A stretch of DNA of 11,881 nt from JBHIBR01 sp046759145 [NCBI: Nitrospinota bacterium] (lineage in GTDB: Bacteria; UBA8248). The stretch is from assembly GCA_046759145.1 (NCBI GenBank), contig JBHIBR010000021.1:1-11881 (forward strand). The letters run 5' to 3'. The translations under genes were made by a program, and so were the position numbers. Under the pieces are notes generated by a model. The model saw only the letters and a program-made list of their open reading frames with translations, had not been told where the DNA came from and did no database searches. The number at the start of each line of letters is the position of its first letter. Within the stretch, counting starts at the first letter, position 1. Of this stretch, positions 2 through 11,881 are shown piece after piece.

Positions 2-808
2 GTCTTCGCGGGGAGCTATCTGGCCCTGCGCTACGCCTTCCCCCACCTGGCGCAGTGGGTGGTGGACGCCAAGACTCCCCTCCCGATGCCCGCCAGCGCC
101 CTCTTCATGTACATGCTCCTCGTGCTCACGGGCATCCTCGTCTACGCCTTCTCGAGCGAGGAGCTCAAGCGGGAGTTCCTGGGGCCCATCCTGGCCCTCT
201 TGGGATCGAGCGAGGGGGGGCCGCTCCTCCGGGGGGCGCGTTGGGCGACCTTCGGCGTCATCCCCCTCCTCGCCGCCTTCGTCATCTACCGCGGCCTCGC
301 CCCGGCGAGCGAGCCTCCGGTGGAGAGCCGGATCCAGCACCCCACGATCCCCAAGGAGTACGAGAAGCTCCAGAATCCTTTCCGGAACCCTCCCGACGAC
401 CATGTCCGGACGTTCCTACGGGAGGCCAAGCTCACCGGGCTCAGCCTGGAGGAAGGGAGGCGCCGCCTCGTGGCGCGCTCCATCCGGGAGGGGCGCATCC
501 TCTACCAGAAGAACTGCCGCCCCTGCCACGGCACCAAGGCCGATGGCGAGGGCCCTCACGCGCGGGGCTTCCGCCTCAAGCCAGCCAACTTCACCGACCC
601 GGGCACCATCGCCACGCTGGTGGAGGGCTACCTCTTCTGGCGCATCAAGGAGGGCGGCATCGGCCTCCCCGTGACGGCGAGTCCGTGGGACAGCGCCATG
701 CCCCGCTGGAAGGGGGACCTCACGGATGAGGAGATCTGGAAGATCATCCTGGCCGAGTTCGACACGGCGGGCGTGGAGCCCCGAAGGCCGGAGAAGCTCG
801 GTGAGTAG
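2..808 (+). CDS. Membrane-anchored monoheme cytochrome c (5'-partial)
   Basis: The reading frame is open to the left window edge, so the true start lies upstream; a GTG at 59 is internal. The visible 268 residues begin with the end of an apparent membrane segment, followed by a second hydrophobic span (around nt 90-155) and a third (around nt 240-300). An exported domain follows with one covalent heme c motif, C-R-P-C-H, at nt 515-529. The sequence S-A-M-P-R-W near nt 694-711 supplies a plausible methionine axial ligand, followed by the usual amphipathic C-terminal helix of class I cytochromes c. The last codons overlap the GTG start of the next gene by 8 nt, so the two are translationally coupled. 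By context it is an electron-transfer subunit of a membrane redox complex, perhaps of a bc-type or molybdoenzyme-linked chain; that role is inference. The heme-binding assignment is secure, the exact family is not. Confidence 0.85.
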   Translation, partial: VFAGSYLALRYAFPHLAQWVVDAKTPLPMPASALFMYMLLVLTGILVYAFSSEELKREFLGPILALLGSSEGGPLLRGARWATFGVIPLLAAFVIYRGLAPASEPPVESRIQHPTIPKEYEKLQNPFRNPPDDHVRTFLREAKLTGLSLEEGRRRLVARSIREGRILYQKNCRPCHGTKADGEGPHARGFRLKPANFTDPGTIATLVEGYLFWRIKEGGIGLPVTASPWDSAMPRWKGDLTDEEIWKIILAEFDTAGVEPRRPEKLGE

Positions 809-2522
809 CGTGCACGGACAATGGTGGGCGGCGAGGGCGGGCGCCCGTGCGCTTCTCCTCGGCGCGTTTCTCGCGCTCGGGCCGGCCCCGGCGCTGGCCC
901 TGCCGCCCGGCTACGGGGACGCCGAGCTTCAGGCGCGAAAGCCCAAGGCCACCCCCGAGCTGGTGGCCAAGGGGAAGGAGGTCTACGAGAAGCGCTGCAG
1001 CTTCTGCCACGGGGAGAAGGGGGACGGAGAGGGCCCCGTCGCCGACTACCTCCACCCCCGCCCTCGGGATTTCACGCAGGGCCTCTATAAATTCCGCACC
1101 ACGAAGACTGGCGAGCTTCCCACGGACGAGGACCTCTTCCGCACGGTCTCCCTCGGCGTGCCCGGCACCGGCATGCCGGCCTGGGGAGAGGGGACCTTCC
1201 GCCTGCCCGAGGCCGAGCGCTGGGGGGTGGTCTTCTACATCAAGAGCTTTTTCCCGGACTTCGCCGACCCCGAGTTCAACCCCTACGAAGAGCGGGTCGA
1301 ACGCAGCGCGCCCCCGCCGGCGAGCCCGGAGCTGGTCCGGCTGGGGGGGCAGATCTATCGCGACGAGCTGCGGGGAGCCTGTGCGAAGTGCCACGGGCCC
1401 GAGGGAAGAGGAGACGGGGCCGAGGCTGGCGCCCAGAAGGACGACTGGGGCTTCCCCATCCTGCCGGCGAACCTGGCGGCGAGCTGGCGCTACAAGAACT
1501 GGGGCCCCTCGCTCGAGGAGGTCTTTCGTACCCTCTCGACCGGCCTCAACGGAACCCCCATGCCGGGCTACGCCGACTCGCTCAAGGAAAGGGAACGCTG
1601 GGCCCTGGCCCACTACGTGCGCTCGCTCCAGGTGAAGTGGGCCGCGGGGGGGAAGGTGGTCCTCACCGCCCGGCGCGTGGAGGGGGAGGTCCCCCTCCGG
1701 CCCGATGATCCCCGCTGGCAAGAGGCTGACCATCTCGACGTTCCCCTCAGCGGCCAGCTCTTGGTGGGGCCGCGCTGGCCTAATCCCTCTATCGTTCGGG
1801 TGAGGGTGCGGGCGCTCTACGACGGTCGCTCGATCGCCTTCCACCTCACATGGTTCGACCGCTTGAAGAACGACTCGCACAAGGTGCCCTCTCGCTTCCT
1901 CGAGCCTCTGCGCGACACCTACGTGCCCGCCAAGGTGCAGCTCGCCCTCCGGACCGCCCGCGACGCCATCGCCCTCCAGTTCCCGGTGAAACCGCCCCAG
2001 GGGCCCCGCAAGCCCTACTTCTTCTTGGGCGAGGCGGGCCGGCCGGTGGACCTCTGGGAGTGGCGGGCGGACTGGCAGAAGAACCCGGCCGCCCACGGGG
2101 GCCGGGCCGTGCTGGAGCAGGTGGGCAAGGGGTTTGACCGGCCCGTGGCCGAGAAACCCGCTCGGGCGCATCACGTCCGCAGCCGGGCCTCCTACGCGGC
2201 GGGCCGGTGGCAGGTGGTGATGGTGCGGCCGCTCCACACGCCCAACCCGAAGACGGACGTTCAGTTGGCCCCCGGCCTCCAGGTGCCGTTCATGATTCAC
2301 GCTTGGGACGGGGCCAACGGGGAGTTCGGCATGCGGCGGAGCATCTCGAGCTGGCACTACGTGCAGCTCGAGATCAAGACGCCCCTCCGCGTCTATCTCT
2401 ACGCCCTCCTGGGGGGGCTCGTCGCGCTGGCCTTCGAAGGCTTCCTGGTCCGGCGGGTCCGCGGGCGCGGCCGGCCGGGGGGTCATACGGGCGCCCCCGC
2501 GGGCGGCCGCGAGGAGGGATAG
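801..2522 (+). CDS. Diheme cytochrome c fused to an ethylbenzene-dehydrogenase-gamma-like heme-b domain
   Basis: I chose GTG at 801 (573 aa) because GGAG at 790-793 lies 7 nt upstream and it yields a clean signal peptide with an A-L-A end near residue 33. Further upstream codons only shadow the previous gene. Two class I cytochrome c domains follow: C66-S-F-C-H70 with a G-M-P-A-W methionine loop, and C194-A-K-C-H198 with G-T-P-M-P-G. Residues about 275-530 resemble the heme-b subunit of type II DMSO-reductase-family enzymes (EbdC, NxrC, ClrC type). Visible signs are W470-Q-V-V-M-V-R475-P-L, A-W502-D-G-A-N-G-E and a terminal S-I-S-S-W segment. A transmembrane helix at 531-550 and a basic tail anchor it with the bulk outside the cytoplasm. 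In the family this domain carries one b heme and passes electrons to or from a molybdenum catalytic subunit. No such subunit is visible here, so it may act as a pure electron relay. Confidence 0.88.
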   Translation: MSSVHGQWWAARAGARALLLGAFLALGPAPALALPPGYGDAELQARKPKATPELVAKGKEVYEKRCSFCHGEKGDGEGPVADYLHPRPRDFTQGLYKFRTTKTGELPTDEDLFRTVSLGVPGTGMPAWGEGTFRLPEAERWGVVFYIKSFFPDFADPEFNPYEERVERSAPPPASPELVRLGGQIYRDELRGACAKCHGPEGRGDGAEAGAQKDDWGFPILPANLAASWRYKNWGPSLEEVFRTLSTGLNGTPMPGYADSLKERERWALAHYVRSLQVKWAAGGKVVLTARRVEGEVPLRPDDPRWQEADHLDVPLSGQLLVGPRWPNPSIVRVRVRALYDGRSIAFHLTWFDRLKNDSHKVPSRFLEPLRDTYVPAKVQLALRTARDAIALQFPVKPPQGPRKPYFFLGEAGRPVDLWEWRADWQKNPAAHGGRAVLEQVGKGFDRPVAEKPARAHHVRSRASYAAGRWQVVMVRPLHTPNPKTDVQLAPGLQVPFMIHAWDGANGEFGMRRSISSWHYVQLEIKTPLRVYLYALLGGLVALAFEGFLVRRVRGRGRPGGHTGAPAGGREEG

Positions 2523-2527
2523 CGCCC

Positions 2528-3442
2528 ATGGGGAAGACTCTGCTGAAGGTCAGCCTGTTTTCCCTGGTCTGGGTCGGGGCCTTTATCTATGTCTCCATCG
2601 TCTTGACCGAGATCTCGGGCGGTGGCGGGACGGCGCGGCCGACTGGGGAGGTCTCTCCCGAGGCGGGGAAGGCGCTCTTCTGGGGCAAGGGCAAGTGCTT
2701 CACCTGCCACAGCTTCGGGAGCCGGGGCAGCGCCGAGCGCGGGCCCAACCTGGGGGTGGGAGGGGCCTTCGCCGAGCCCGTCGCGGTGCGGGCCGCCAAG
2801 CGCAAGCCCGGCATGAGCGCCATCCGGTACATCGTGGAGTCCATCTACCAGCCCGATGTCTTCGTCGTGCCCGGATTCTCGAAGCTGATGACGCCCATCC
2901 ACCGCCCCCCCATCGCCCTCTCGGACGAGGAGATCGCCGCCGTCATCAGCTACCTCCTGAGCGAGAGCGGCGTCGAGGTGGGGGCGAGGGAGCTCCAGGA
3001 GGTGGCCGGGGCGCAGGCGCCCTACAGGACGGGGCAGATCGAGCTCGCATCCGCCGCGACGGGCCCCAGCATCAAGTTCCCCGAGGGGGATCCCGAGGAA
3101 GGGAAGGAGGTCTTCCAGGAGATGGAGTGTTTCAAATGCCACAAGGTCGCCGGCATGGATTTCCCCGTGCCCAAGGGCGAGGTGGGGGGCGTGGGCCCCG
3201 ACCTCACGGGCATCGGCGACGTGCAGACCGAGGAGTACCTCATCGAGTCCATCGTGAACCCCAACGCCGTCATCGTGCGGGGGGAGGGGTACACCGCAGC
3301 CGATGGCATGAGCAAGATGCCCGAGTTCGCCGAGAGCATGACGGTCGGGCAGCTCCAGCACCTTGTGGCCTTCCTGAAGTCGCTGAAGGCCCCCGCCGCG
3401 GGCGCCGCGCCCGGGCCGGCGCGCGCGGGCGAGGGAAGCTGA
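2528..3442 (+). CDS. Membrane-anchored diheme cytochrome c
   Basis: ATG at 2528 gives 304 aa. It is preceded by a strong AGGAGGG at 2512-2518 and lies 5 nt after the previous stop, so the genes are co-transcribed. A single N-terminal transmembrane segment (residues about 6-28) acts as an uncleaved anchor or signal. Two cytochrome c domains follow: C57-F-T-C-H61, with a probable methionine ligand in the L-M-T-P-I-H region, and C201-F-K-C-H205, with M-S-K-M-P-E-F as ligand loop. Each ends in a helix of the kind that closes class I cytochromes (D-E-E-I-A-A-V-I-S-Y-L and Q-L-Q-H-L-V-A-F-L). The last 16 residues are an Ala/Pro/Gly tail of no known role. It probably shuttles electrons between the membrane complex and the neighbouring cytochromes; the partner is not known. 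Confidence 0.88.
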   Translation: MGKTLLKVSLFSLVWVGAFIYVSIVLTEISGGGGTARPTGEVSPEAGKALFWGKGKCFTCHSFGSRGSAERGPNLGVGGAFAEPVAVRAAKRKPGMSAIRYIVESIYQPDVFVVPGFSKLMTPIHRPPIALSDEEIAAVISYLLSESGVEVGARELQEVAGAQAPYRTGQIELASAATGPSIKFPEGDPEEGKEVFQEMECFKCHKVAGMDFPVPKGEVGGVGPDLTGIGDVQTEEYLIESIVNPNAVIVRGEGYTAADGMSKMPEFAESMTVGQLQHLVAFLKSLKAPAAGAAPGPARAGEGS

Positions 3443-3484
3443 GGGGATGTGGCTGGGCGCCCTGCGCCGCGGGGCAAGCCATGA

Positions 3485-3492
3485 GGGGAGGG
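3485..3492 (+). promoter_or_regulatory. Ribosome binding site deciding the start at 3500
   Basis: GGGGAGGG lies 7 nt before the ATG at 3500 and selects it over the in-frame ATG at 3509 and over an out-of-frame ATG at 3481. Confidence 0.6.
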
Positions 3493-3499
3493 TCGTTCC

Positions 3500-4294
3500 A
3501 TGAGACGGATGTCGGCGGTTGCTTTGCTCATCTCGCTGGCGCTTTTCCTGGCGCCGCCAGCGGGTGCGGCGTACGAGGCCATCGAGGTGAAGGACGGCGG
3601 AACCATCGCCGGTCGCGTGACCTGGTCGGGGCCCTTCCCGAAAGTGCCCCCTTTCCCCGTCGTCAAGAACCCTGAGGTGTGCGACGTGGGGAAGACGGGG
3701 AAGAAGCCCTCGCCCAGGCTCCTCGTCGACCCTCAGAGCCGCGGGGTGAAGAACGCGGTGGTCTACCTGGCCAACATCCGCCGGGGCCGCAAGCTGGTGC
3801 GGCCCGGCGCGCCGCTCGTGCTCGATCAGAAGGACTGCGAGTACAACCCCCACGTCCTCATCGCCCCCCGGCGCGCCCGACTCGCCATGACCACCAGCGA
3901 CGTGGTCCTCCACAACATCCACATGTTCGGCCGCGCTTCCTACAACCTGCCCTTCCCGAGGAAGGGGATCATCATCAAGAAGCGCCTCCGGCGCGCGGGC
4001 CTCATCTGGATGCGGTGCGACGCGGGCCACGCCTGGATGAGCGCCTACATCTGGGTGGTGGAACACCCCTACTATGCCCTGACCGACGCGGAGGGCCGCT
4101 TCACGCTCAAGGGCGTGCCACCCGGCAAGTACGTCTTGAAGGCCTGGCACGAGGGTTGGAAGGTCACCAAGACCATCGAGAAAGACGGCCTGCCCGCCTT
4201 CTACGAGTACGCCGCGCCCGTCGAGATCGCGAAGGAGGTCACGGTCTCTCCGGGCGGAACGGTGGGCGTCAACTTCAAGCTGAAGGAGAAGTAG
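3500..4294 (+). CDS. Exported cupredoxin-like / carboxypeptidase-regulatory-like protein
   Basis: The 264-aa product starts with a signal peptide (hydrophobic 6-20, cleavage probably after A-G-A near 23). An immunoglobulin-like beta domain follows. Conserved metal-type residues include D112-C113, N116-P-H118, H138-N-I-H141, and the segment C173-D-A-G-H177-A-W-M180. The order His...Cys-x3-His-x2-Met recalls the type 1 copper site of plastocyanin/azurin-like folds. Residues about 188-225 carry the carboxypeptidase-regulatory-like signature (V-T/T-D-A-E-G-R-F-x-L-x-x-V-P-P-G-K-Y-x-L-x-x-W-H-E). Proteins of this type are often annotated as carboxypeptidase regulatory-like or methylamine-utilisation-like and frequently sit beside cytochromes c. 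Here it follows three cytochrome genes after a 57-nt gap and is probably a periplasmic electron carrier or a structural partner. Copper binding is inferred from residue pattern only. Confidence 0.8.
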   Translation: MRRMSAVALLISLALFLAPPAGAAYEAIEVKDGGTIAGRVTWSGPFPKVPPFPVVKNPEVCDVGKTGKKPSPRLLVDPQSRGVKNAVVYLANIRRGRKLVRPGAPLVLDQKDCEYNPHVLIAPRRARLAMTTSDVVLHNIHMFGRASYNLPFPRKGIIIKKRLRRAGLIWMRCDAGHAWMSAYIWVVEHPYYALTDAEGRFTLKGVPPGKYVLKAWHEGWKVTKTIEKDGLPAFYEYAAPVEIAKEVTVSPGGTVGVNFKLKEK

Positions 4295-4373
4295 GAACCC
4301 TACGTAGAGCGCTTCCCGGGGGGCTTCTTGGCTCTGGTCACTCCCGGCATGTCGGTCCCCAAAGGGAGGAATC

Positions 4374-6392
4374 ATGTACCGGACCATCTGCGTGCCCGTG
4401 GACAACTCGGCCCACTCGGACCGCGCCGCCGATCACGCGCTCCGCCTTGCGCGCGCCTTCGGCGCCCGGCTGGTGGGCTGCCACGTCTACGCGGCGAGGC
4501 TCCACGAGCTGCGCTTCAAGCAGATGGAGTACACCCTCCCCGAGGAGTATCGAGAAGAGCAGGAACTCGAGCGCCAGCGCGAGGTCCATGACTCGCTCAT
4601 CACGCTCGGTCTCCGCCTCATCTCGGACTCCTACTTAGACGTCCTGGAGCGCCGCTGCGGGGAGGCGGGCGTCACCTTCGAGCGGAAGGTCTTTGAAGGC
4701 AAGCACCATAAGGTGCTCCTGAAGGACATCCGCGAGAGCCGCTACGACCTCGTGGTGATGGGCGCCCTCGGCATGGGGGCGGGCCGGGAGAGTCAGGTCG
4801 GCGGGGTGGCCGAGCGCGTCATCCGCAGGGCCCGGGCCGACTTCTGGTTAGTCCGGGGGCTGGAGGGAGAGGAGGACCGACGCCCTATAGCGGTGGGCCT
4901 CGACGGGAGTCCCCAGTCTTTCGCCGCCTTGCGACAAGCGCTCGCCCTGGGGCGGGCTTTCCGCCGGCCTGTGGAGGCGGTGGCCGTCTATGACCCCTAC
5001 CTCCACTACGCGATCTTCACTAGCGTCGTCAGGGTGTTGAGCGAGAGAGCGGCCAAGGCGTTCCGCTTCAAGGAGCAGGAGCAGCTCCACGAGGAGCTCA
5101 TCGACGCGGGCCTCGCCGGGATCTACCAGAGCCACCTCCAGGTGGCGAAGCGGCTGGCGGAGGAGGAGGGCATGGGGCTTCAGACCACCCTCCTGGACGG
5201 GAAGGCCTACGAGAAGATCCTCATTCACTGCCGCGAGGTCCGGCCTTGGCTCTTGTGCCTCGGCCGGGTGGGCGTGCACGCGGACGATGAGAGCGACCTC
5301 GGGAGCAACACCGAGAACCTGCTGCGGCTCGCCCCCTGCAACGTGCTGCTCACGGGCCGCACTTTCTACCCCCCCATGGACGTTCGCGCCGATGAGGCCA
5401 TGGCCTGGACGGAGGAGGCCCGGCGCCGCATGGACCGGGTCCCCGCCCTGGTCCGCGGCATCGCGCGGACCGCCATCTTGCGGTATGCGATCGAGCGGGG
5501 CCATTCGGTCATCACGAGCAGGATCATCGATGGGGCGATGGCCGCCTTCATGCCGGCGGCCGCCCACCGGGCCATGGGCTCCTTGGCCAAGGAGGTGGCG
5601 GCGGAGCACGTCCGGCGCGAGCCCGCCATCCGCCACATCTGCTCCGCATGCGGCTACACCGCCGAGGCCGAAGACCCGGTGCGCTGCCCGGTTTGCGGGG
5701 CGGGGGCAGAGGCCTTTCAGAAGGTGGACCGGGAGGTGGTGGAGGGGGTGTTGCGCGCGCAGGGGGGCGTCATGGAGGAGGAGGCTTTTGACGGCCAGCG
5801 GCTCCAGTGGACCAAGGCGGCACGGCACTCCCTCCAGCAGGTGTCGGACGCCCACCAGCGCCGCCGGGCTAAAGCGCGCATCGAGAAGGCGGCCCGCCTC
5901 AAGAAGCTCTCCACCATAAGCCTCGAGTTTGCACGACCCCTGATTGAGGAGAGCGTGGACCCGGCCCACCTGCCGCAAGACGCGCGGCCGGCGGCCCCGC
6001 AGGCGAAGCAGGCCTCCCCCCCGCCCGCTGAGGCAGTTCCCCGGGAGGAGGGCAGCCCCCCCTTCTCTCCCCCCCTGGGGGGGGAGCTGGCGGGCGCAGA
6101 GGAGGAAGACTTACGCTGGACGGAGGAGGCCGAGGCCAGCCTAGGACGGGTGCCCGAGGGATTCCCCCGCGCGATGACCCGGAAGCGCGTCGAGGCCGAG
6201 GCCCGCGCCCAGGGCCGCCAGGTCATCACCCTGGCCCTCGCTGAGCGGGCGATCGCCAGGGTGCGGGAGGGGGTGAGAGCCTTCATCCCACACGGGGCTC
6301 TTCCGTCGGCGACCGAACCCGAGCCCGCCCCGTCTAAGCGCCCGCCCCAGGGGGAGCATCCTGCGTCCCGATATCCCCCTCCGGCTCGATGA
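4374..6392 (+). CDS. Tandem universal stress protein fused to three PCP_red-like repeats and a rubrerythrin-type metal ribbon
   Basis: ATG at 4374 with AGGGAGGA at 4362-4369 gives 672 aa with no signal peptide, so it is cytoplasmic. Residues 1-160 and about 168-330 are two Usp domains. Each has a G-x2-G-x9-G nucleotide-binding motif: G130/G133/G143, followed by G rather than S/T, and G297/G300/G310, followed by S311. Three short repeats begin at W345, W479 and W582. They read W-T-(E/K)-x-A-x-x-x-(L/M), then V-P or its equivalent, then a basic helix, then V-I-T or L-S-T, and a closing hydrophobic helix. This resembles the PCP_red domain found at the C-terminus of the BchB/ChlB protochlorophyllide reductase subunit. 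The first copy fits best; the second lacks the V-P-x-x-x-R core. Between repeats 1 and 2 lies C423-x2-C426-G-Y...C438-P-V-C441-G, a rubrerythrin/rubredoxin-like Zn or Fe site. A proline-rich linker (about 528-575) separates repeats 2 and 3. It may sense redox or energy state for the cytochrome module; that is inference. Confidence 0.85.
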   Translation: MYRTICVPVDNSAHSDRAADHALRLARAFGARLVGCHVYAARLHELRFKQMEYTLPEEYREEQELERQREVHDSLITLGLRLISDSYLDVLERRCGEAGVTFERKVFEGKHHKVLLKDIRESRYDLVVMGALGMGAGRESQVGGVAERVIRRARADFWLVRGLEGEEDRRPIAVGLDGSPQSFAALRQALALGRAFRRPVEAVAVYDPYLHYAIFTSVVRVLSERAAKAFRFKEQEQLHEELIDAGLAGIYQSHLQVAKRLAEEEGMGLQTTLLDGKAYEKILIHCREVRPWLLCLGRVGVHADDESDLGSNTENLLRLAPCNVLLTGRTFYPPMDVRADEAMAWTEEARRRMDRVPALVRGIARTAILRYAIERGHSVITSRIIDGAMAAFMPAAAHRAMGSLAKEVAAEHVRREPAIRHICSACGYTAEAEDPVRCPVCGAGAEAFQKVDREVVEGVLRAQGGVMEEEAFDGQRLQWTKAARHSLQQVSDAHQRRRAKARIEKAARLKKLSTISLEFARPLIEESVDPAHLPQDARPAAPQAKQASPPPAEAVPREEGSPPFSPPLGGELAGAEEEDLRWTEEAEASLGRVPEGFPRAMTRKRVEAEARAQGRQVITLALAERAIARVREGVRAFIPHGALPSATEPEPAPSKRPPQGEHPASRYPPPAR

Positions 6393-6540: not shown

Positions 6541-6696
6541 CCGAAGATCCCCTACTTCGCCAGGGGGATGGTGGTCAAGGCGGTTGAGGCCTTCGCGAGA
6601 GGGAGAGGTTCAAACAAGGTGACGCCTGAGCCCCCGCAGGAGATCGAAGAGCGGTGGGCGGGAGAGGGAAGATGTCCGTTCGCCGCCGGTTCGTGA
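6541..6696 (+). pseudogene. Decayed PCP_red domain fragment
   Basis: In the frame starting at 6541 the translation runs P-K-I-P-Y-F-A-R-G-M-V-V-K-A-V-E-A-F-A-R, then G-S-N-K-V-T-P-E, then Q-E-I-E-E-R-W, to a TGA at 6694-6696. This is a very good match to the core of the PCP_red domain (K-I-P-x-F-x-R-G-M-x-x-x-x-(I/V)-E-x-x-A-R, then V-T-P-E). The usual opening tryptophan and helix are missing: codons before 6541 read through a T-run (6531-6537) into unrelated sequence, with a stop at 6469-6471 and no credible start or ribosome binding site. It lies 148 nt after the PCP_red-containing gene, so it may be a broken fourth repeat or the end of a deleted paralogue. Its tail overlaps the start of the next gene by 25 nt. 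Confidence 0.55.
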
Positions 6697-7127
6697 TGGC
6701 GACGATGGAGCGGAAGTTCCGCCAAGCGGCGATCGCGTATGTTGGGCTCGGCATCGTCGTCGTCCTCCTCACCCTGGGAGTGGGCGTCCCGGAGCGAAAA
6801 GCGGCGGAGGTCCGCTCATTGATCCCCGGTGTTGTGGCTGTCGTTTTTTTGGGCGCCATGATTTACTTCGCCTCGGCCATCGCGCGCCGATCTGGTGCAT
6901 TGGGCAGGATCGTCGTCTTTCTGACCAAGGTCTTTGTTGTGACGAGCGGCTTGAGGTCGTTCAACTTCTTGATCAATTTCTTCGGCCTGCGGGTGGAGTC
7001 GCATTTCGGGCCTTTCGCGCTGCACTTCCACCCCAGCCAGTTCACGTTCCATCCGATCTTCTTAGTAAATGCCTTGCTGACAGCCCTCATCGCCTACATG
7101 CTGGCCAGGGCAGCGTGGGGTCTCTAA
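6672..7127 (+). CDS. Small multi-pass membrane protein, unrecognised
   Basis: ATG at 6672 gives 151 aa; a purine-rich stretch (GGAGAGGGAAG, 6661-6671) lies directly upstream. In-frame starts at 6654 (GTG) and 6696 (ATG) are alternatives. Hydrophobic segments lie at about 19-39, 50-70, 78-104 (weaker, possibly two short helices) and 129-147, so three or four membrane passes are likely. A histidine- and phenylalanine-rich stretch before the last helix (H111-F-G...H118-F-H120...H127) is the most distinctive part and could bind metal, but no motif is recognised. Codon choice is visibly more AT-rich than in the cytochrome genes (TTT, GTT, TTG, GTA codons), suggesting separate origin. I do not recognise a family and assign no function. 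Confidence 0.65.
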   Translation: MSVRRRFVMATMERKFRQAAIAYVGLGIVVVLLTLGVGVPERKAAEVRSLIPGVVAVVFLGAMIYFASAIARRSGALGRIVVFLTKVFVVTSGLRSFNFLINFFGLRVESHFGPFALHFHPSQFTFHPIFLVNALLTALIAYMLARAAWGL

Positions 7128-7223: not shown

Positions 7224-7272
7224 GGGACTGCCGGTCATGAGGTCGCGGGTTCGAGTCCCGTCAGCTCCACCA
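7224..7272 (+). pseudogene. 3' half of a tRNA (Ala-like acceptor) or tmRNA, 5' half absent
   Basis: The T arm is intact: stem GCGGG (7245-7249), loop TTCGAGT (7250-7256), stem CCCGT (7257-7261). It is preceded by AGGTC (7240-7244), the usual tRNA variable region. The acceptor strand CAGCTCC (7262-7268), discriminator A and encoded CCA (7270-7272) complete the 3' end. A 5' strand GGAGCTG or GGGGCTG would be needed to pair; none is found in the roughly 75 nt before it, nor a tmRNA 5' end within several hundred nt. U at position 70 with A73 is the tRNA-Ala/tmRNA pattern when paired to G3. The upstream part (T-G-C-C-G loop region) does not fold into a convincing anticodon arm. Integrases often use such tRNA or ssrA 3' ends as attachment sites, so this is probably an att remnant. 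A highly unusual functional RNA cannot be excluded. Confidence 0.5.
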
Positions 7273-7366: not shown

Positions 7367-8359
7367 TTATAGCCCCAGCAGCTCGGCGATGTTCCCGCCC
7401 AGGATGGCTGCAAGCTCTTCCGCGGGAAGGTGCAGGGCCCGCACGCCCTCAACGTGGGCCCGGATGTCGGCCCCGTTGTGCATCTCCTGGGGATAGTCGG
7501 TCCCCAGGCAGAGCCTTCGGGGGCTCACCGTGAGGAGGGCCGCCCGGGTGGCGGGCATCCATCCGGCGAAGCCCGCCGTATCGAAGTAGACCTTTCCAAA
7601 AAGCTCCTCGAAAGGGCCCTCCAGCCCCAGCGCCTCCCGCTCCAGGGGGGAGAGGGGAAGAAGCTTGATGTGCCCGGGGATCTCCACTCCCCCGGGCTTG
7701 TAGAACATCTGAATGCGGCCCTTGAGGAAGGGGACGGCGCCCCCGTGATGGGGCATGACGAAACGCAGGTCCGGGAACCGAGTGAGAACGGCGTACATCA
7801 CCCGCACCGTCGCCCGGTTGATGTCCGCCGCCCGCTCCACGCTGGCGACGAGGTCGAAGTCCATCGCCGCTCCCGCCGGGCGCATGGCCGGGTGGACGAG
7901 CACCGGAAGGCCCAACTCGGCGATGCGGGCAAACAGGGGGCGGAGGGACTCGTCCCCCAGGTGAACGTCCCCCTCCGACGTCAGGAGGGCCACGGCCCGG
8001 AAACCCAGGTCGCCGGCCGCCCGGTTCAGCTCCGCGAGGGTCTCCGCGTCGCCCGAGAGGGGCAGGTGGGCGCAGGGGAAGAAACGGTCCGGATGGGCGC
8101 GGGCCAGGTCGGCGAAGCCGTCGTTCAGCTCTCGGCATACGGCGAGCCCTTTCTTGTTCCAATGGGCGAGGTGGACCACCGAGGCATCCACTCCCGCCTC
8201 CTCCATGGCCCGGAGGTGGGCGGCCGTGTCATGGAGAATGGGATTGAACGTGAAGTAGAAATCCTCCTCCACGATCCTCCCGCCGGGGGGGACGCGCCGA
8301 TGGAAGAAGGCCTTGGGCATGTAGTGGTGGTGGACCGTGATGACGGGCGGGCGCGCCAC
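7367..8359 (-). CDS. Amidohydrolase family 2 protein (ACMSD-like metal-dependent hydrolase/decarboxylase)
   Basis: The GTG start at 8359 is preceded on the minus strand by AAAGGAG about 6 nt away and gives 330 aa, the usual length for the family. The metal-binding set of the ACMSD/amidohydrolase 2 TIM barrel is visible: H10-H11-H12 after a short first strand, H156 in L-V-L-V-H-P, H204-H205 in M-P-H-H-G-G, and D288 in L-G-T-D-Y-P. Members bind one zinc and decarboxylate or hydrolyse carboxylated semialdehydes, aromatic acids or related compounds in the cytoplasm. The substrate cannot be read from sequence. It lies downstream of the bioB region on the same strand but has its own good ribosome binding site and a 134-nt leader, so it may be transcribed separately. 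Confidence 0.85.
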   Translation of the reverse strand: MARPPVITVHHHYMPKAFFHRRVPPGGRIVEEDFYFTFNPILHDTAAHLRAMEEAGVDASVVHLAHWNKKGLAVCRELNDGFADLARAHPDRFFPCAHLPLSGDAETLAELNRAAGDLGFRAVALLTSEGDVHLGDESLRPLFARIAELGLPVLVHPAMRPAGAAMDFDLVASVERAADINRATVRVMYAVLTRFPDLRFVMPHHGGAVPFLKGRIQMFYKPGGVEIPGHIKLLPLSPLEREALGLEGPFEELFGKVYFDTAGFAGWMPATRAALLTVSPRRLCLGTDYPQEMHNGADIRAHVEGVRALHLPAEELAAILGGNIAELLGL

Positions 8360-8493
8360 CTAATTCTCCTTTGCGAACGATTGGAATTTCCCTTTTTGCC
8401 GGCCGGGCAAGCCCATTGTACCCGATATTTCCCATATGGCATCCATCGGATGCTGGGACGGTACCACGAATTGGCCCCCGCCGCTCTCGGGCC
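8360..8493 (-). promoter_or_regulatory. Leader of the amidohydrolase gene with a possible -10 element
   Basis: On the minus strand the stretch contains TACAAT (8420 to 8415), about 55 nt before the GTG, in an unusually AT-rich patch for this window. No convincing -35 sequence lies 16-18 nt upstream of it, so a promoter is only suggested. Confidence 0.25.
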
Positions 8494-8775
8494 TCATATT
8501 CGCTTCCCCGGGTTTGCCCGGTTCCAGTCCGCCGCGAAGGCGGTCAAGGCGTCCTCGATGGCGTGGCGAATCCCGGCCTTGGCGTCCACGGGCGGCCCAC
8601 CCAGGAAGGCCAATTGTTGCCACGACACCTTAGGCTTGGCCACACTCTCGGAGCTGAACCCGAACAGCCCAACCGACACCACATAGGCCCTCCCATCCTT
8701 GGGGACCTGCGCCCAAAGTAACGCTAAATCGGGATCGGGGGGCTTGGAGGATGCGCGCTCCCCTTCTGAGGGTAA
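8494..8775 (-). pseudogene. 5'-truncated unknown gene fragment
   Basis: The minus frame ending with TGA at 8494-8496 reads like genuine protein over its last 75-85 codons. It includes D-P-D-L-A-L-L-W-A-Q-V-P-K-D-G, a beta-strand-like Y-V-V-S-V-G-L-F-G-F, then S-W-Q-Q-L-A-F-L-G-G, and a closing helix ending A-A-D-W-N-R-A-N-P. There is no ATG, GTG or TTG start in frame between about 8720 and the bioB stop at 8841; further upstream the frame merely shadows bioB. The first in-frame GTG pair, inside Y-V-V-S, would leave only about 62 residues. I take it as the C-terminal remnant of a deleted gene, with the upper boundary uncertain. The family is not recognised. Composition around 8710-8790 is less GC-rich than bioB. 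Confidence 0.4.
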
Positions 8776-8840
8776 TGGACGAGCAAAGAGGGGAACTTCC
8801 TGGCCAATCCGGCTGGCTGCATCTCCGTCCGGCGGGCTGG

Positions 8841-9860
8841 CTAGCTCGCCGCGCTCTCCATCCGGGGCACGGGGTGCGCGTCCGCCTCGCCGGTTACGTC
8901 CACCTCGAACCCGAGGTCCCGGATCATGCGGTGCGCCTCTGCGGGCGCCTGTCCCGGGGTGGTGAGGTAGCCGGCCACGAAGATGGAGTTCGCCGGATAG
9001 AGGGCCAGGGGCTGAAGCTCCCGCAGCTGCACCTCGCGCCCCCCGGCCGCCCGGACCTCCGAGCGCGGGTTGAAGAATCGCACGAGCGAGAGGATCCGCA
9101 GGCAGAGGGCGGGCCCAAGGGGAGGGACATCCTGCAAGGGGGTCCCCGGGATGGCGTGCAGAAAATTCACCGGGATCGACTCCGGCCCTATCTCCCGCAG
9201 CGCCTCGCAGACATCGACGATGTCCTCTCGACTCTCCCCCTGGCCGAAGATGGCCCCCGAACACAGCTCGAGCCCCGCCCGCCGCGCCGCGCGCAGCGTG
9301 GCAATGCGGTCGCCGTAGGTGTGCGTCGAGCAGATCCTCGGGCAGAAGCGCTCGCTGGTGTTGAGGTTGTGGTTCAGCCGATCTACCCCGGCCTCGCGCA
9401 GGCGCCGCGCCTTCTCCCCGTCGAGCAGCCCCAGGGAGCAACAGATGGCCATGCTGTGGGCCGACTTGATCCGCGAGACCGCAGCCCCGATGCGGTCCAC
9501 CTCGCGGTCGGTGGGCCCCCTTCCGCTGATGGCGATGCAGTAGCGGCGCGAGCCCGCCGCCGCGGCCCCCTCTGCCCCTTGGAGGAGCCGCCCTTCGTCC
9601 ACCAGGCCGTAGCGGTCGATGGCAGCGGAGGAGACCGACGACTGGGAGCAGTAGGCGCAATCCTCCGGGCAGAGGCCGCTCTTCGCGTTGATCAGGAAAT
9701 GGATCTGCACCGTCCTGCCGAAGTAGTGGCGTCGCACACGAAACGCCGCCTCGAGGAGGGGAAGCAGGTCGTCCCCGGGGGCGTCGAGGATGGCGGCGGC
9801 CTCCTCGCGGGTGGGCTTCCCGCCCGCGAGGACGCGGCTCGCCAGTTCCCGATAGTCCAT
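8841..9860 (-). CDS. bioB: Biotin synthase
   Basis: ATG at 9860 gives 339 aa and has GGAGGAGAGG just upstream; the longer frame from 9905 would start inside a hairpin. BioB is a radical SAM enzyme that inserts sulfur into dethiobiotin, the last step of biotin synthesis. The SAM-binding [4Fe-4S] motif is C64-P-E-D-C68-A-Y-C71. Ligands of the sulfur-donating [2Fe-2S] cluster are all present: C108 (Y-C-I-A-I-S-G), C140 (I-C-C-S-L-G), C200 (L-C-S-G) and R270 (V-R-A-A-G-G-R-E). The N-H-N-L-N-T-S and T-Y-G-D-R motifs also match. With every catalytic residue conserved, this is a functional BioB and not a BioB-like relative. No other biotin genes are in the window, so bioB is separated from bioA/D/F here. 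Confidence 0.95.
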   Translation of the reverse strand: MDYRELASRVLAGGKPTREEAAAILDAPGDDLLPLLEAAFRVRRHYFGRTVQIHFLINAKSGLCPEDCAYCSQSSVSSAAIDRYGLVDEGRLLQGAEGAAAAGSRRYCIAISGRGPTDREVDRIGAAVSRIKSAHSMAICCSLGLLDGEKARRLREAGVDRLNHNLNTSERFCPRICSTHTYGDRIATLRAARRAGLELCSGAIFGQGESREDIVDVCEALREIGPESIPVNFLHAIPGTPLQDVPPLGPALCLRILSLVRFFNPRSEVRAAGGREVQLRELQPLALYPANSIFVAGYLTTPGQAPAEAHRMIRDLGFEVDVTGEADAHPVPRMESAAS

Positions 9861-9875
9861 CTTGCCTCTCCTCCA

Positions 9876-9900
9876 TCGAGCCCCCCAGAGGGGGGGTCGA
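9876..9900 (-). promoter_or_regulatory. GC hairpin abutting the bioB ribosome binding site
   Basis: TCGAGCCCCCC (9876-9886) and GGGGGGGTCGA (9890-9900) pair over 10 of 11 positions around an AGA loop. On the bioB transcript this stem ends about 4 nt before the GGAGGAG ribosome binding site. It could stabilise the 5' end, limit initiation, or be a palindromic repeat without a role. It lacks a T-run on the coding strand, so it is not a standard terminator. Confidence 0.4.
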
Positions 9901-9960
9901 GACATCGCCCTTTGGAAAAGCGCTCAGACGCACCATCCCGGGCGGAGCGCGCAGATGCAA

Positions 9961-10000
9961 ACTGGACTGCAACTTAGGATCCGAGGCGCAATTCTGCAAC
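9961..10000 (-). promoter_or_regulatory. Weak promoter-like element and direct repeat upstream of bioB
   Basis: On the minus strand GTTGCAG occurs twice, 27 nt apart (10000-9994 and 9973-9967), with TTTGCA following the second copy. TTGCAG (9999-9994), a 17-nt spacer and TAAGTT (9976-9971) could be -35 and -10 boxes, each matching the consensus at about half its positions. It lies 110-140 nt before bioB and does not match the BirA or BioR operators I know. The remaining 9861-10116 interval shows no gene. Confidence 0.2.
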
Positions 10001-10116
10001 GGCCTCGGGAAAAGAAACCCGCCCCCGGCCCCGACTGCTGCCCGGTGAGGGTCCGCTTCGGGGAGGGGGTCTGCGCTCGGGTGGGGGAGGAGGTCAAGGC
10101 GCTCGGCGCCCGGGGC

Positions 10117-10461
10117 CTAGCCCCCCATGTAAGCCCCGAGGAGGAGGATGTGGTCTCCGGGCTCGACCTCGCTGTCGAGGTTGTGGCGGACGCCCAGCAC
10201 CGCGTCGTTGACCGCCACCTCGAGGTGCTCGCCGAGGCCTCCGCTCCGGGGATCCCAAAGCGCCTGATCGAGCTGGGGGAAGCGGGCGCTCAGGCGCTTG
10301 AGGATGCTGCGGACGGTGTCGCCGGGCTGAGCCACCTCGTCGAAGGCCACCCGGCCCGAGCCGTCCCCCCCCACGAGGCGGGTGACCCAGGCGACGGCCT
10401 CTACCCGGACGCGGAAGCCCTCGCCGGACGGCGCCGGTTTCTCTCGCGGCTCAACGGACAC
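10117..10461 (-). CDS. MoaD/ThiS-family ubiquitin-like sulfur carrier protein
   Basis: GTG at 10461 gives 114 aa, and the start overlaps the end of the oxidoreductase gene by 11 nt, so translation is coupled. The beta-grasp fold is suggested by the alternating strands, P-G-D-T-V-R-S-I-L-K-R-L in the first helix, A-V-N-D in the middle and V-E-P-G-D-H-I-L-L-L before the end. The protein ends in G-A-Y-M-G-G, the double glycine that is adenylated and thiocarboxylated in sulfur carriers. It is longer than typical MoaD (about 80-90 aa), with about 14 extra N-terminal residues and an insertion near V-T-R-L-V-G-G-D-G-S-G. Such genes often sit with aldehyde:ferredoxin oxidoreductases and are thought to supply dithiolene sulfur to the tungsto- or molybdopterin. 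A dedicated role here is inference from the overlap. Confidence 0.82.
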   Translation of the reverse strand: MSVEPREKPAPSGEGFRVRVEAVAWVTRLVGGDGSGRVAFDEVAQPGDTVRSILKRLSARFPQLDQALWDPRSGGLGEHLEVAVNDAVLGVRHNLDSEVEPGDHILLLGAYMGG

Positions 10462-11881
10462 CGCCCGTCGCCTCCGCGCCCCAGAGGGCGGGGATGAGCT
10501 CCTCGAGACTCAGCTGCCGGAGAGTCTCCGGGAGGGGTCGGCCGCTCTTCCGGTCGTAGCCCACCGTGGCGTACCACACATCCAGCATGTGGTCCCAGTG
10601 CTCCTGCGAGGCCATCCCCTTGGCAGGGCCGTCGGCGGGGACGGAGCCATACCGAGAGGAGGGCTTCTCCAGCTCGGGTCCGATGCCGCAGCGCAGGTTG
10701 AAAGCCCGCATGAGGGCCGCCGTCCGCCGGCCGAAGCGCATGGCCTCCCCTTTGTCGTAGTTCCAGCCCGTGGCCGCCGAGAGGGTGCGGCAGAGGAGCT
10801 CGAGCGTCGTGCGCGTGGTGAAGACGCAGGCGCCCAGCGAGTCCTCAAACTGGCGCCGCCCCAGGAAGCCGCCCACCTGCTTCGCCACCTGGTCCGGGTC
10901 GAAGGGGTTGATGCGGGCGGGCAGCCCCAGCTCGGCCGGCCTGACCGGCGGCCCGTTGTCTATGGTGCCACTGCTCGCGGTGCAGGTGTCGAGCATCTCG
11001 TCCCAGCGCGCCCGGTGGTCGTGGCCGCGGGGGGTGGCCCCCTTGAGGGTGTAGATGGCGCACTCGGCCGCCCGTCCTCCCACCTTCTCGGAGGCCCGCT
11101 TCACGCCCTCGGCCAGGAGGTCGCCGAAGCCCCGCCGGTGGACGATCAGCTGGAGGAGTTCGTTGGCCGCCTCCGCGTCCCCCCAGCGGAGCCTCGATCC
11201 CACCTCCTCCGGGGTGAGGTAGCCCTTCTCCTGGCACTCCATCACCCAGCCGCACAGCCAGGCGAATTCGTTCACGTCCACGCAGGCCCGGTCTATCTGG
11301 GTGTTGAGCCAGGATACGGCCTCCCGGTCGGTGCAGCCGACGGCCCAGCCGGCGCCGGACCAGCCCTCGTACTCCGGCTCGTCCACGATCAGCCCCTTGT
11401 GGCGGCCCGCCCGGATCACCTGCATGTGGCAGTGGTGCATCCCGCAGGCGTTGCACTGGTGCCCCCGGTGGTCGAATCCCTCGCGCAGGCTCGGCGCCTC
11501 CCACAATTTCAAGTCCGTCCCCTCGGGCGGCACGCTGGTGGTGTAGTTCTTGATGGGGAGCGCCCCCAGCCGCATCAGGTTCATCACGCCGGGTAGGGTG
11601 CCGTATTCGTAAAGGGAGCGGGTGGAGGGGTCGGTCCTGAGGTCGTGGACGATCTCCTCCGCCGCGAGGTAGAGCCCCCGGGGGTCGGCGGCACGGAGGG
11701 CCTTCGTCCCCCGCACGATGGCCACCGCCTTGAGCTGTTTCTTCCCCATGACCGCCCCGCAGCCGTTCTTGCTCGCCACGTGGCCGTAATCCCCCTCGAT
11801 GGCCGCGAAGCGCACCAGGTTCTCCCCGGCGGGGCCGATGCTGTAGACGCTCATCCGGTGGCCGCTCAGGCCGTGCTCGGC
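10451..11881 (-). CDS. Aldehyde:ferredoxin oxidoreductase family tungsten/molybdenum enzyme (5'-partial)
   Basis: The frame is open to the right window edge; an internal ATG at 11854 is probably not the start, because residues before it (A-E-H-G-L-S-G-H-R) continue the family pattern. About 476 of roughly 600 residues are visible. Numbering from that Met, G-P-A-G-E-N-L-V-R at 7-15 and the V-A-S-K-N-G-C-G-A-V-M-G-K-K-Q-L-K-A-V segment belong to the AOR N-terminal pterin-binding domain. C134-N-A-C137-G-M-H-H-C142 plus C343 in D338-S-L-G-A-C are the [4Fe-4S] ligands. G-H-D-H-R-A at 278-283 and D338 fit pterin contacts. The enzyme oxidises aldehydes to acids with ferredoxin as acceptor, or acts on another substrate in the wider family. 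The Cys spacing is x2-x4, not the usual x2-x3. It is followed by the overlapping MoaD-like gene. Confidence 0.9.
   Translation of the reverse strand, partial: AEHGLSGHRMSVYSIGPAGENLVRFAAIEGDYGHVASKNGCGAVMGKKQLKAVAIVRGTKALRAADPRGLYLAAEEIVHDLRTDPSTRSLYEYGTLPGVMNLMRLGALPIKNYTTSVPPEGTDLKLWEAPSLREGFDHRGHQCNACGMHHCHMQVIRAGRHKGLIVDEPEYEGWSGAGWAVGCTDREAVSWLNTQIDRACVDVNEFAWLCGWVMECQEKGYLTPEEVGSRLRWGDAEAANELLQLIVHRRGFGDLLAEGVKRASEKVGGRAAECAIYTLKGATPRGHDHRARWDEMLDTCTASSGTIDNGPPVRPAELGLPARINPFDPDQVAKQVGGFLGRRQFEDSLGACVFTTRTTLELLCRTLSAATGWNYDKGEAMRFGRRTAALMRAFNLRCGIGPELEKPSSRYGSVPADGPAKGMASQEHWDHMLDVWYATVGYDRKSGRPLPETLRQLSLEELIPALWGAEATGGVR

Follow-up and report, generated by a model that had tools for sequence, protein, structure and literature searches.

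The gene described here lies in a window of 11,881 nucleotides (the whole stretch of DNA that was analysed) and occupies an intact open reading frame of 672 residues on the forward strand; GGGAGGAATC stands before its ATG. The encoded protein, here termed Usp-PCP, joins two universal stress protein (Usp) domains to three PCP_red domains and a rubredoxin-like ribbon. The features of the window are given below with the evidence for each.

2..808, + strand: membrane-anchored cytochrome c, truncated at its 5' end by the window edge (Pfam)
822..2522, + strand: protein with two cytochrome c domains and an EB_dh domain, start uncertain, open frame from 726 (Pfam)
2528..3442, + strand: membrane-anchored diheme cytochrome c (Pfam)
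3500..4294, + strand: CarboxypepD_reg-domain protein with a hydrophobic N-terminus (Pfam)
4374..6392, + strand: Usp-PCP, a Usp-Usp-PCP_red-ribbon-PCP_red-PCP_red protein of 672 residues (open reading frame list, Pfam, alignment)
4374..4856, + strand: Usp domain 1, residues 1-161 (Pfam, structure match, alignment)
4875..5360, + strand: Usp domain 2, residues 168-329, bounds approximate (Pfam, structure match, alignment)
5406..5537, + strand: PCP_red copy 1, residues 345-388 (Pfam, structure match)
5637..5717, + strand: rubredoxin-like ribbon, CxxC...CxxC, residues 422-448 (Pfam, alignment)
5808..5939, + strand: PCP_red copy 2, about residues 479-522 (Pfam)
6117..6248, + strand: PCP_red copy 3, about residues 582-625 (Pfam, structure match)
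6696..7127, + strand: small hydrophobic protein with no Pfam match; at locus L007 a relative of it adjoins the radical SAM gene described below
7370-11881, - strand: downstream unrelated genes (amidohydrolase, BioB-like radical SAM protein, ThiS-type protein, aldehyde ferredoxin oxidoreductase)

A first-pass annotation had read the protein as two Usp domains fused to three PCP_red-like repeats, with a metal ribbon between the first and second copies, and Pfam placed each of these families above its cut-off. Usp scored 139.8 bits over two stretches (cut-off 24), PCP_red (PF08369) scored a significant 89.3 bits (E = 1.6e-25) over three stretches (cut-off 32.5), and RUBY_RBDX scored 28.9 bits at residues 422-448 (cut-off 26.5). 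The nucleotide motif of universal stress proteins (PF00582) has the form G-2x-G-9x-G(S/T). Usp domain 2 carries it as G-2x-G-9x-GS at residue 297, and Usp domain 1 carries G-2x-G-9x-G at residue 130, ending in GG in the window protein and in GS in 28 of 35 aligned rows. Since the highest 19-residue Kyte-Doolittle mean was 1.24, the protein has no obvious membrane span. Pfam detected no Oxidored_nitro domain (PF00148) in Usp-PCP at E-values up to 1, and its best score against DPOR subunit B in NCBIfam was 53.2 bits, below the equivalog cut-off of 509. Despite the ribbon, no ferritin-like di-iron domain was matched in Pfam, and the protein falls outside the NCBIfam rubrerythrin family (16.2 versus 200 bits).

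When the full-length protein was modelled with AlphaFold2 (pLDDT 77.2, pTM 0.53), residues 1-334 agreed with tandem Usp proteins, namely 3cis (Z = 28.5, 279 residues aligned) and 3ab8, which contains ATP (Z = 27.6). In both Usp domains, the models and the alignment revealed long inserted helices bearing invariant histidines. A second model, of residues 336-640 (pLDDT 82.1, pTM 0.33), matched two PCP_red structures solved by NMR, 2kru (TMt 0.75 and rmsd 1.1 in Foldseek, at an E-value of only 0.026; VIA Z = 9.2) and 2l09 (TMt 0.68, E = 0.03; VIA Z = 9.5), as well as the C-terminal end of subunit B of DPOR (2ynm_D; 50 residues, Z = 7.2); no Foldseek match to this model reached an E-value of 0.001 or better. 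The predicted fold thus resembles that of PCP_red, the domain to which the first-pass annotation had likened the repeats. PCP_red also resembled AAA+ lid domains (Z = 7-8.5), a likeness that we set aside because such scores are common among helical arrangements.

Upstream of the gene lie cytochromes c, one of them with an EB_dh domain, in keeping with the respiratory context noted earlier. The absence of a nearby chlorophyll gene was likewise confirmed: no chlorophyll-synthesis family in Pfam was matched by the other window proteins among ten scanned. The CarboxypepD_reg protein is probably exported, judging from its N-terminus, and its gene is often immediately upstream of Usp-PCP among relatives. 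This protein also contains a CDAGHAWM stretch reminiscent of a cupredoxin copper loop, but a copper site was dropped as a weak lead since the pattern tried fits only 3 of 52 homologues. At 7245-7272 there is a perfect tRNA 3' end (T-arm plus a ...CCA-like tail), present once in the window and without a 5' half, where ARAGORN called no tRNA; this could be what is left of an att site bordering an island with the respiratory genes. ARAGORN did call a tRNA-Trp at 2201-2280, inside the EB_dh coding frame, which is probably false since Rfam matched no RNA family in the window.

Scanning of genome contigs recovered 333 stretches encoding Usp-PCP relatives. The best 80 of these each match at least 528 of the 672 query residues, with 49-61% identity in the best segment, and carry record titles from Rokubacteria/Methylomirabilota, Poribacteria, Tectomicrobia/Entotheonella, Rhodothermales, Acidobacteria, TA06, Planctomycetota, Proteobacteria, and one further bacterium. 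A Usp-PCP profile matched 28 of 297 genomes from the phylum centred on an Acidobacteria record and 14 of 395 from the phylum centred on a Rhodothermales record, with one match in each. Since the architecture recurs in so many relatives, the assembly artefact that the first-pass annotation had considered is ruled out; Usp-PCP is a conserved family, with one copy per genome in the two phylum samples searched. In an alignment of 35 members (mean column identity 67%), the ribbon cysteines (423, 426, 438, 441), the PCP_red tryptophans (345, 479, 582), and six Usp histidines (37, 44, 72, 211, 239, 254) were invariant, and PCP_red copy 3 was shortened at three loci (L031, L041, L058). The window protein formed a long branch of unsure placement in a tree of 41 rows. 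By its cytochrome genes, the relative nearest to the window is L171, whose EB_dh gene ends 18 bases before its Usp gene. Here (1942-4351), a 534-residue Usp-Usp-PCP_red-ribbon protein is followed by a separate 259-residue protein with three PCP_red domains, and therefore the fusion can be split.

Around Usp-PCP, at the loci of the best 80 of the 333 relatives, stand cytochrome oxidase genes and the genes of three partners with which it makes up a cassette: an AhbD/NirJ-like radical SAM/SPASM protein ending in PCP_red (SAM-PCP), a small zinc-ribbon-PCP_red protein (ribbon-PCP), and an Mrp/NBP35-type ATPase (Mrp). The first-pass annotation had suggested a regulator or assembly factor; as a direction this holds, but not the view of a lone fusion, since Usp-PCP is one of three PCP_red proteins per cassette, together with SAM-PCP and ribbon-PCP. 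The trio was present in 17 of the 18 first host genomes, with the SAM or ribbon gene elsewhere in the genome when not at the locus. The exception was G010, where SAM-PCP was not found; in G007 the PCP_red match of the SAM gene is split between frames. Profile searches placed SAM-PCP in 37 of 38 Usp-PCP genomes; among these matches, those of G199 and G311 were shorter or split and kept PCP_red within one reading frame, and that of G296 was without PCP_red. In 4 of 28 genomes without Usp-PCP, shorter SAM matches occurred, all without PCP_red. Cassette genomes also contain additional small PCP_red proteins whose genes adjoin those for EB_dh proteins or cytochromes c (L085, 5822-6490, beside an EB_dh gene; L097, 8126-8701).

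The best-scoring NCBIfam families of the SAM partner were AhbD and NirJ2 in 17 of 17 members, and peptide and PQQ maturase families of the SPASM radical SAM group scored as well. Every SAM protein scored fell under all curated cut-offs, that of L004 reaching 307.1 of 500 bits for AhbD, 302.5 of 500 for NirJ/NirJ2, and 262 of 395 for TIGR04053. The ATPase partner belongs to Mrp/NBP35 (ParA/NUBPL domain, 235.5 versus 27.1 bits at L047). In Mrp/NBP35 proteins, a C-terminal CxxC holds a bridging Fe-S cluster. A pattern search found this CxxC in 54 of 55 non-Rokubacteria copies and in 1 of 25 Rokubacteria copies; missing in 24 of 25 of the latter, the motif makes a simple Fe-S carrier an unlikely role for Mrp, and we set that role aside. 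Ribbon-PCP has a CPF motif at least 90% conserved in 62 aligned rows, some loci being counted twice. One-base overlaps join Usp to Mrp (L031, L051), and Mrp to ribbon and ribbon to SAM (L156), and such overlaps were seen in different phyla. The median gap to the Usp gene was 29 bases from EB_dh (n = 9) and 15 bases from CarboxypepD_reg (n = 25); frame starts were set mechanically, and single gaps can be off.

Among relatives, cytochrome c and EB_dh genes of the window type come after a CydA-like gene that matches PF01654 (81.7, 89.6, 87.3, and 66.7 bits in four relatives; cut-off 26.2). The N-terminal part of its product aligns with the CydA chains of solved cytochrome bd, and two of its histidines align with CydA histidines that we take to be ligands. 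Canonical quinol-oxidising cytochrome bd is marked by a GRQPW-type quinol-loop signature, and a pattern search found this signature absent from 9 of 9 CydA-like rows. The 11,881-nt window contains none of the CydA-like, SAM-PCP, Mrp, and ribbon-PCP genes. Judging from the gene order of relatives, on which its link rests, the CydA-like gene of the window copy would lie past the left window end.

Co-occurrence was quantified with profiles for the CydA-like protein, built from loci near Usp-PCP and tuned to that subfamily, and for the EB_dh protein. Thirty-eight positive genomes comprised 25 of the 28 Acidobacteria-centred matches (without G004 and the partial matches G190 and G359) and 13 of the 14 Rhodothermales-centred ones (without G009); G004 and G009, counted later, are not among the 38. 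A further 14 genomes, taken from the 18 first hosts without G001, G002, G010, and G015, raised the positives to 52. The 28 negatives, picked by size, came from 40 no-match genomes listed among 650 without a match, the 12 left out all being at most 2.6 Mb. All 52 Usp-PCP genomes matched the CydA-like profile, whereas among the 28 without Usp-PCP only G377 did, weakly and in part (2e-26). The genomes are related, and the Fisher p-values calculated for the co-occurrence take no account of this kinship and do not represent evolutionary counts. EB_dh was likewise found in 52 of 52, each with a match reaching the EB_dh half, while partial matches outside that half occurred in 3 of the 28. Usp-PCP and the CydA-like gene share a contig in 46 of the 52 genomes, 1.9-25.3 kb apart, and lie on different contigs in 6. 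In a second sample of 60 genomes from the Rokubacteria-centred phylum, CydA-like was present in 39 of 41 PCP_red-positive genomes and in 0 of 19 PCP_red-negative ones. The two positives lacking it were G041 and G058, the match in the latter lying on a 6.3-kb contig that starts inside a TM-cytochrome c gene. Thus, Usp-PCP family genes sit and co-occur with a cytochrome complex having a CydA-like subunit. The first-pass annotation, which noted neighbouring cytochromes c, had missed this bd-like complex; it, rather than c-type cytochromes in general, is the partner that tracks Usp-PCP. The cassette and the bd-like genes are arranged most clearly at L161, where a single strand carries the genes for Usp-PCP, SAM-PCP, a small membrane protein, Mrp, ribbon-PCP, the CydA-like protein, diheme c, and cytochrome c/EB_dh, and where 19 kb gave no match to a cox gene.

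Outside the cassette, PCP_red is a domain of chlorophyll-type reductases. The single negative genome with PCP_red, G375, carries it on BchB- and BchZ-type proteins (Oxidored_nitro plus PCP_red), and among 14 control genomes it was found in Synechococcus elongatus only. A BchZ-type protein at L160 (1061-2467) also ends in PCP_red (35.5 bits, cut-off 32.5), and thus the domain is not confined to DPOR. Every PCP_red match that was classified belonged to a chlorophyll-type reductase, to a member of the trio, or to one of a few small additional proteins of cassette genomes. Chlorophyll synthesis was rejected as the function of the cassette, since the window Usp-PCP is without Oxidored_nitro and no BchB was found among the classified PCP_red matches of the 18 first host genomes. 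We also rejected the SAM protein as the missing step of heme b synthesis, because homologues of ferrochelatase and Chlor_dismutase occur in 12 of 12 host genomes searched, although the Chlor_dismutase matches are weak and partial in 8 (41-64 bits). Ordinary heme b would thus need no extra step, which suggests that a special rather than a common heme would be at stake.

The domains, the cassette, the coupling of its genes, and their co-occurrence are what the data show; we infer from them that the bd-like complex is the target, that the cassette serves to mature it, and that this involves a tetrapyrrole. The cassette would then be a dedicated maturation machine for the complex with Usp-PCP as its nucleotide-binding scaffold, a reading to which we give an even chance. 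It would act in the cytoplasm on the CydA-like complex; the tandem Usp would bind ATP or AMP and serve as switch and scaffold, the PCP_red domains would dock the client or its tetrapyrrole, or present either to the SAM protein and the ATPase, and the ribbons would hold Zn or Fe. The outcome would be a cofactor, most likely a heme, correctly made or inserted. This reading is favoured because the CydA-like gene tracks Usp-PCP (52/52; 39/41 versus 0/19; same contig in 46/52), because SAM-PCP accompanies it in 37 of 38 genomes, because one-base gene overlaps and a median EB_dh-Usp gap of 29 bases occur, because L161 unites the cassette and the bd-like genes on one strand without a cox match, and because PCP_red in G375, which lacks the cassette, sits on BchB- and BchZ-type proteins. 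A tetrapyrrole role would fit the SAM proteins, whose best scores are to AhbD and NirJ2, both tetrapyrrole enzymes. Within the maturation reading, a more specific and fairly unlikely version is that the cassette both makes and inserts a non-standard tetrapyrrole of the bd-like complex. Here the AhbD/NirJ-like protein would alter heme or a heme precursor, PCP_red would be a module for handling tetrapyrroles that the cassette has in common with chlorophyll reductases that form chlorins, and nucleotide-gated transfer would fall to the tandem Usp and Mrp. Counting against maturation are the homologues of the ordinary heme b enzymes in 12 of 12 genomes, the loss of the Mrp CxxC in Rokubacteria, SAM scores below curated cut-offs, the position of the cassette amid cox genes at many loci, PCP_red in G041 without a CydA-like match, and a CydA-like gene unseen within the window itself.

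The cox genes raise the question of whether the cassette serves the adjoining heme-copper (aa3-type) oxidase instead of the bd-like complex. The gene's surroundings in Rokubacteria and Poribacteria are cox1-4, ctaA, and ctaB, joined in the latter by sco, but COX1 was found in 38 of 38 Usp-PCP genomes and also in 26 of 28 without Usp-PCP. Being non-discriminating, cox was rejected as the sole partner. Moreover, in 13 cassette genomes of the acidobacterial phylum the single COX1 match was on a different contig in 8 and at a distance of 0.56-0.72 Mb in 5, and L161 has cassette and bd-like genes with no cox match in 19 kb; we consider this service highly improbable. It is also possible, though unlikely, that nothing is built and that the protein is an energy or redox sensor, in which Usp responds to ATP/AMP and the ribbon to metal or redox state, and PCP_red binds and regulates the bd-like complex or the proteins that donate electrons to it. 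Regulatory roles are common among Usp proteins, and the tandem Usp fold close to ATP-bound 3ab8 and the conserved G-2x-G-9x-G motifs fit such a sensor, which would nevertheless leave unexplained the radical SAM and Mrp partners travelling with Usp-PCP. These partners are accommodated if the SAM protein makes a separate small molecule or peptide for this respiratory chain, aided by Usp-PCP, ribbon-PCP, and Mrp, with PCP_red as a docking tag for the SAM protein or the ATPase and not a tetrapyrrole module. BchB and BchZ work with NifH-like ATPases. That these other PCP_red carriers pair with ATPases, to which the Mrp P-loop is related, and that the SPASM family includes the peptide and PQQ maturases that also score, speak for such a product. 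The top scores, however, go to the heme enzymes AhbD and NirJ2, and we regard a separate product as decidedly unlikely.

The maturation reading can be set beside known systems. BchB/ChlB of DPOR and BchZ of COR have a C-terminal PCP_red of the same family and fold as that of Usp-PCP, but the window protein has a tandem Usp in place of Oxidored_nitro and scores 53.2 against 509 bits. It shares the tandem Usp fold and the G-2x-G-9x-G motifs with Rv2623 (3cis), TTHA0350 (3ab8), and UspE (5cb0), but differs from them in the long helices inserted into its Usp domains, which bear the invariant histidines, and in a PCP_red/ribbon extension of 340 residues. The SAM partner is a radical SAM/SPASM protein like AhbD, NirJ/NirJ2, and TIGR04053, but scores below their curated cut-offs and has an extra C-terminal PCP_red. 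In heme d1 synthesis, accessory genes likewise lie beside one cytochrome complex and include a NirJ-like enzyme. The bd-like oxidases of Nitrospina and Nitrospira, as described in excerpts of the Nitrospina genome paper (PMC3578206), have a CydA-like N-terminal half, no quinol-loop signature, and c-type cytochromes nearby, as here; in the present genomes an EB_dh subunit and the PCP_red cassette go with the complex. Their function is termed enigmatic in that text, and cytochrome bd families are sorted in an OR-C/OR-N scheme in passages of three further papers (PMC10839748, PMC12342949, PMC11707229). Excerpts of DPOR and chlorophyll papers (PMC12518044, PMC13297055, PMC7948495) assign no function to PCP_red, and PMC7242693 yielded no passage when searched for the names of hemes. 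In the CC-licensed PMC literature, we found no described cofactor-maturation system with Usp, PCP_red, and Mrp components and no description of the cassette, although one may exist elsewhere. Since the cassette tracks one bd-like complex almost one to one, the functions of both the complex and PCP_red can be approached by spectroscopy and by deleting genes. Should a modified heme take part, respiration would have recruited an enzyme of the NirJ/AhbD type and a module of chlorophyll reductases; bd-like oxidases would then have a cofactor pathway of their own, and PCP_red a role beyond photosynthesis. At some loci of the acidobacterial phylum (L144, 1308-4382; L152, 3531-4211), the cassette lies beside a molybdopterin and 4Fe-4S protein and a cytochrome c, which resemble subunits of alternative complex III.
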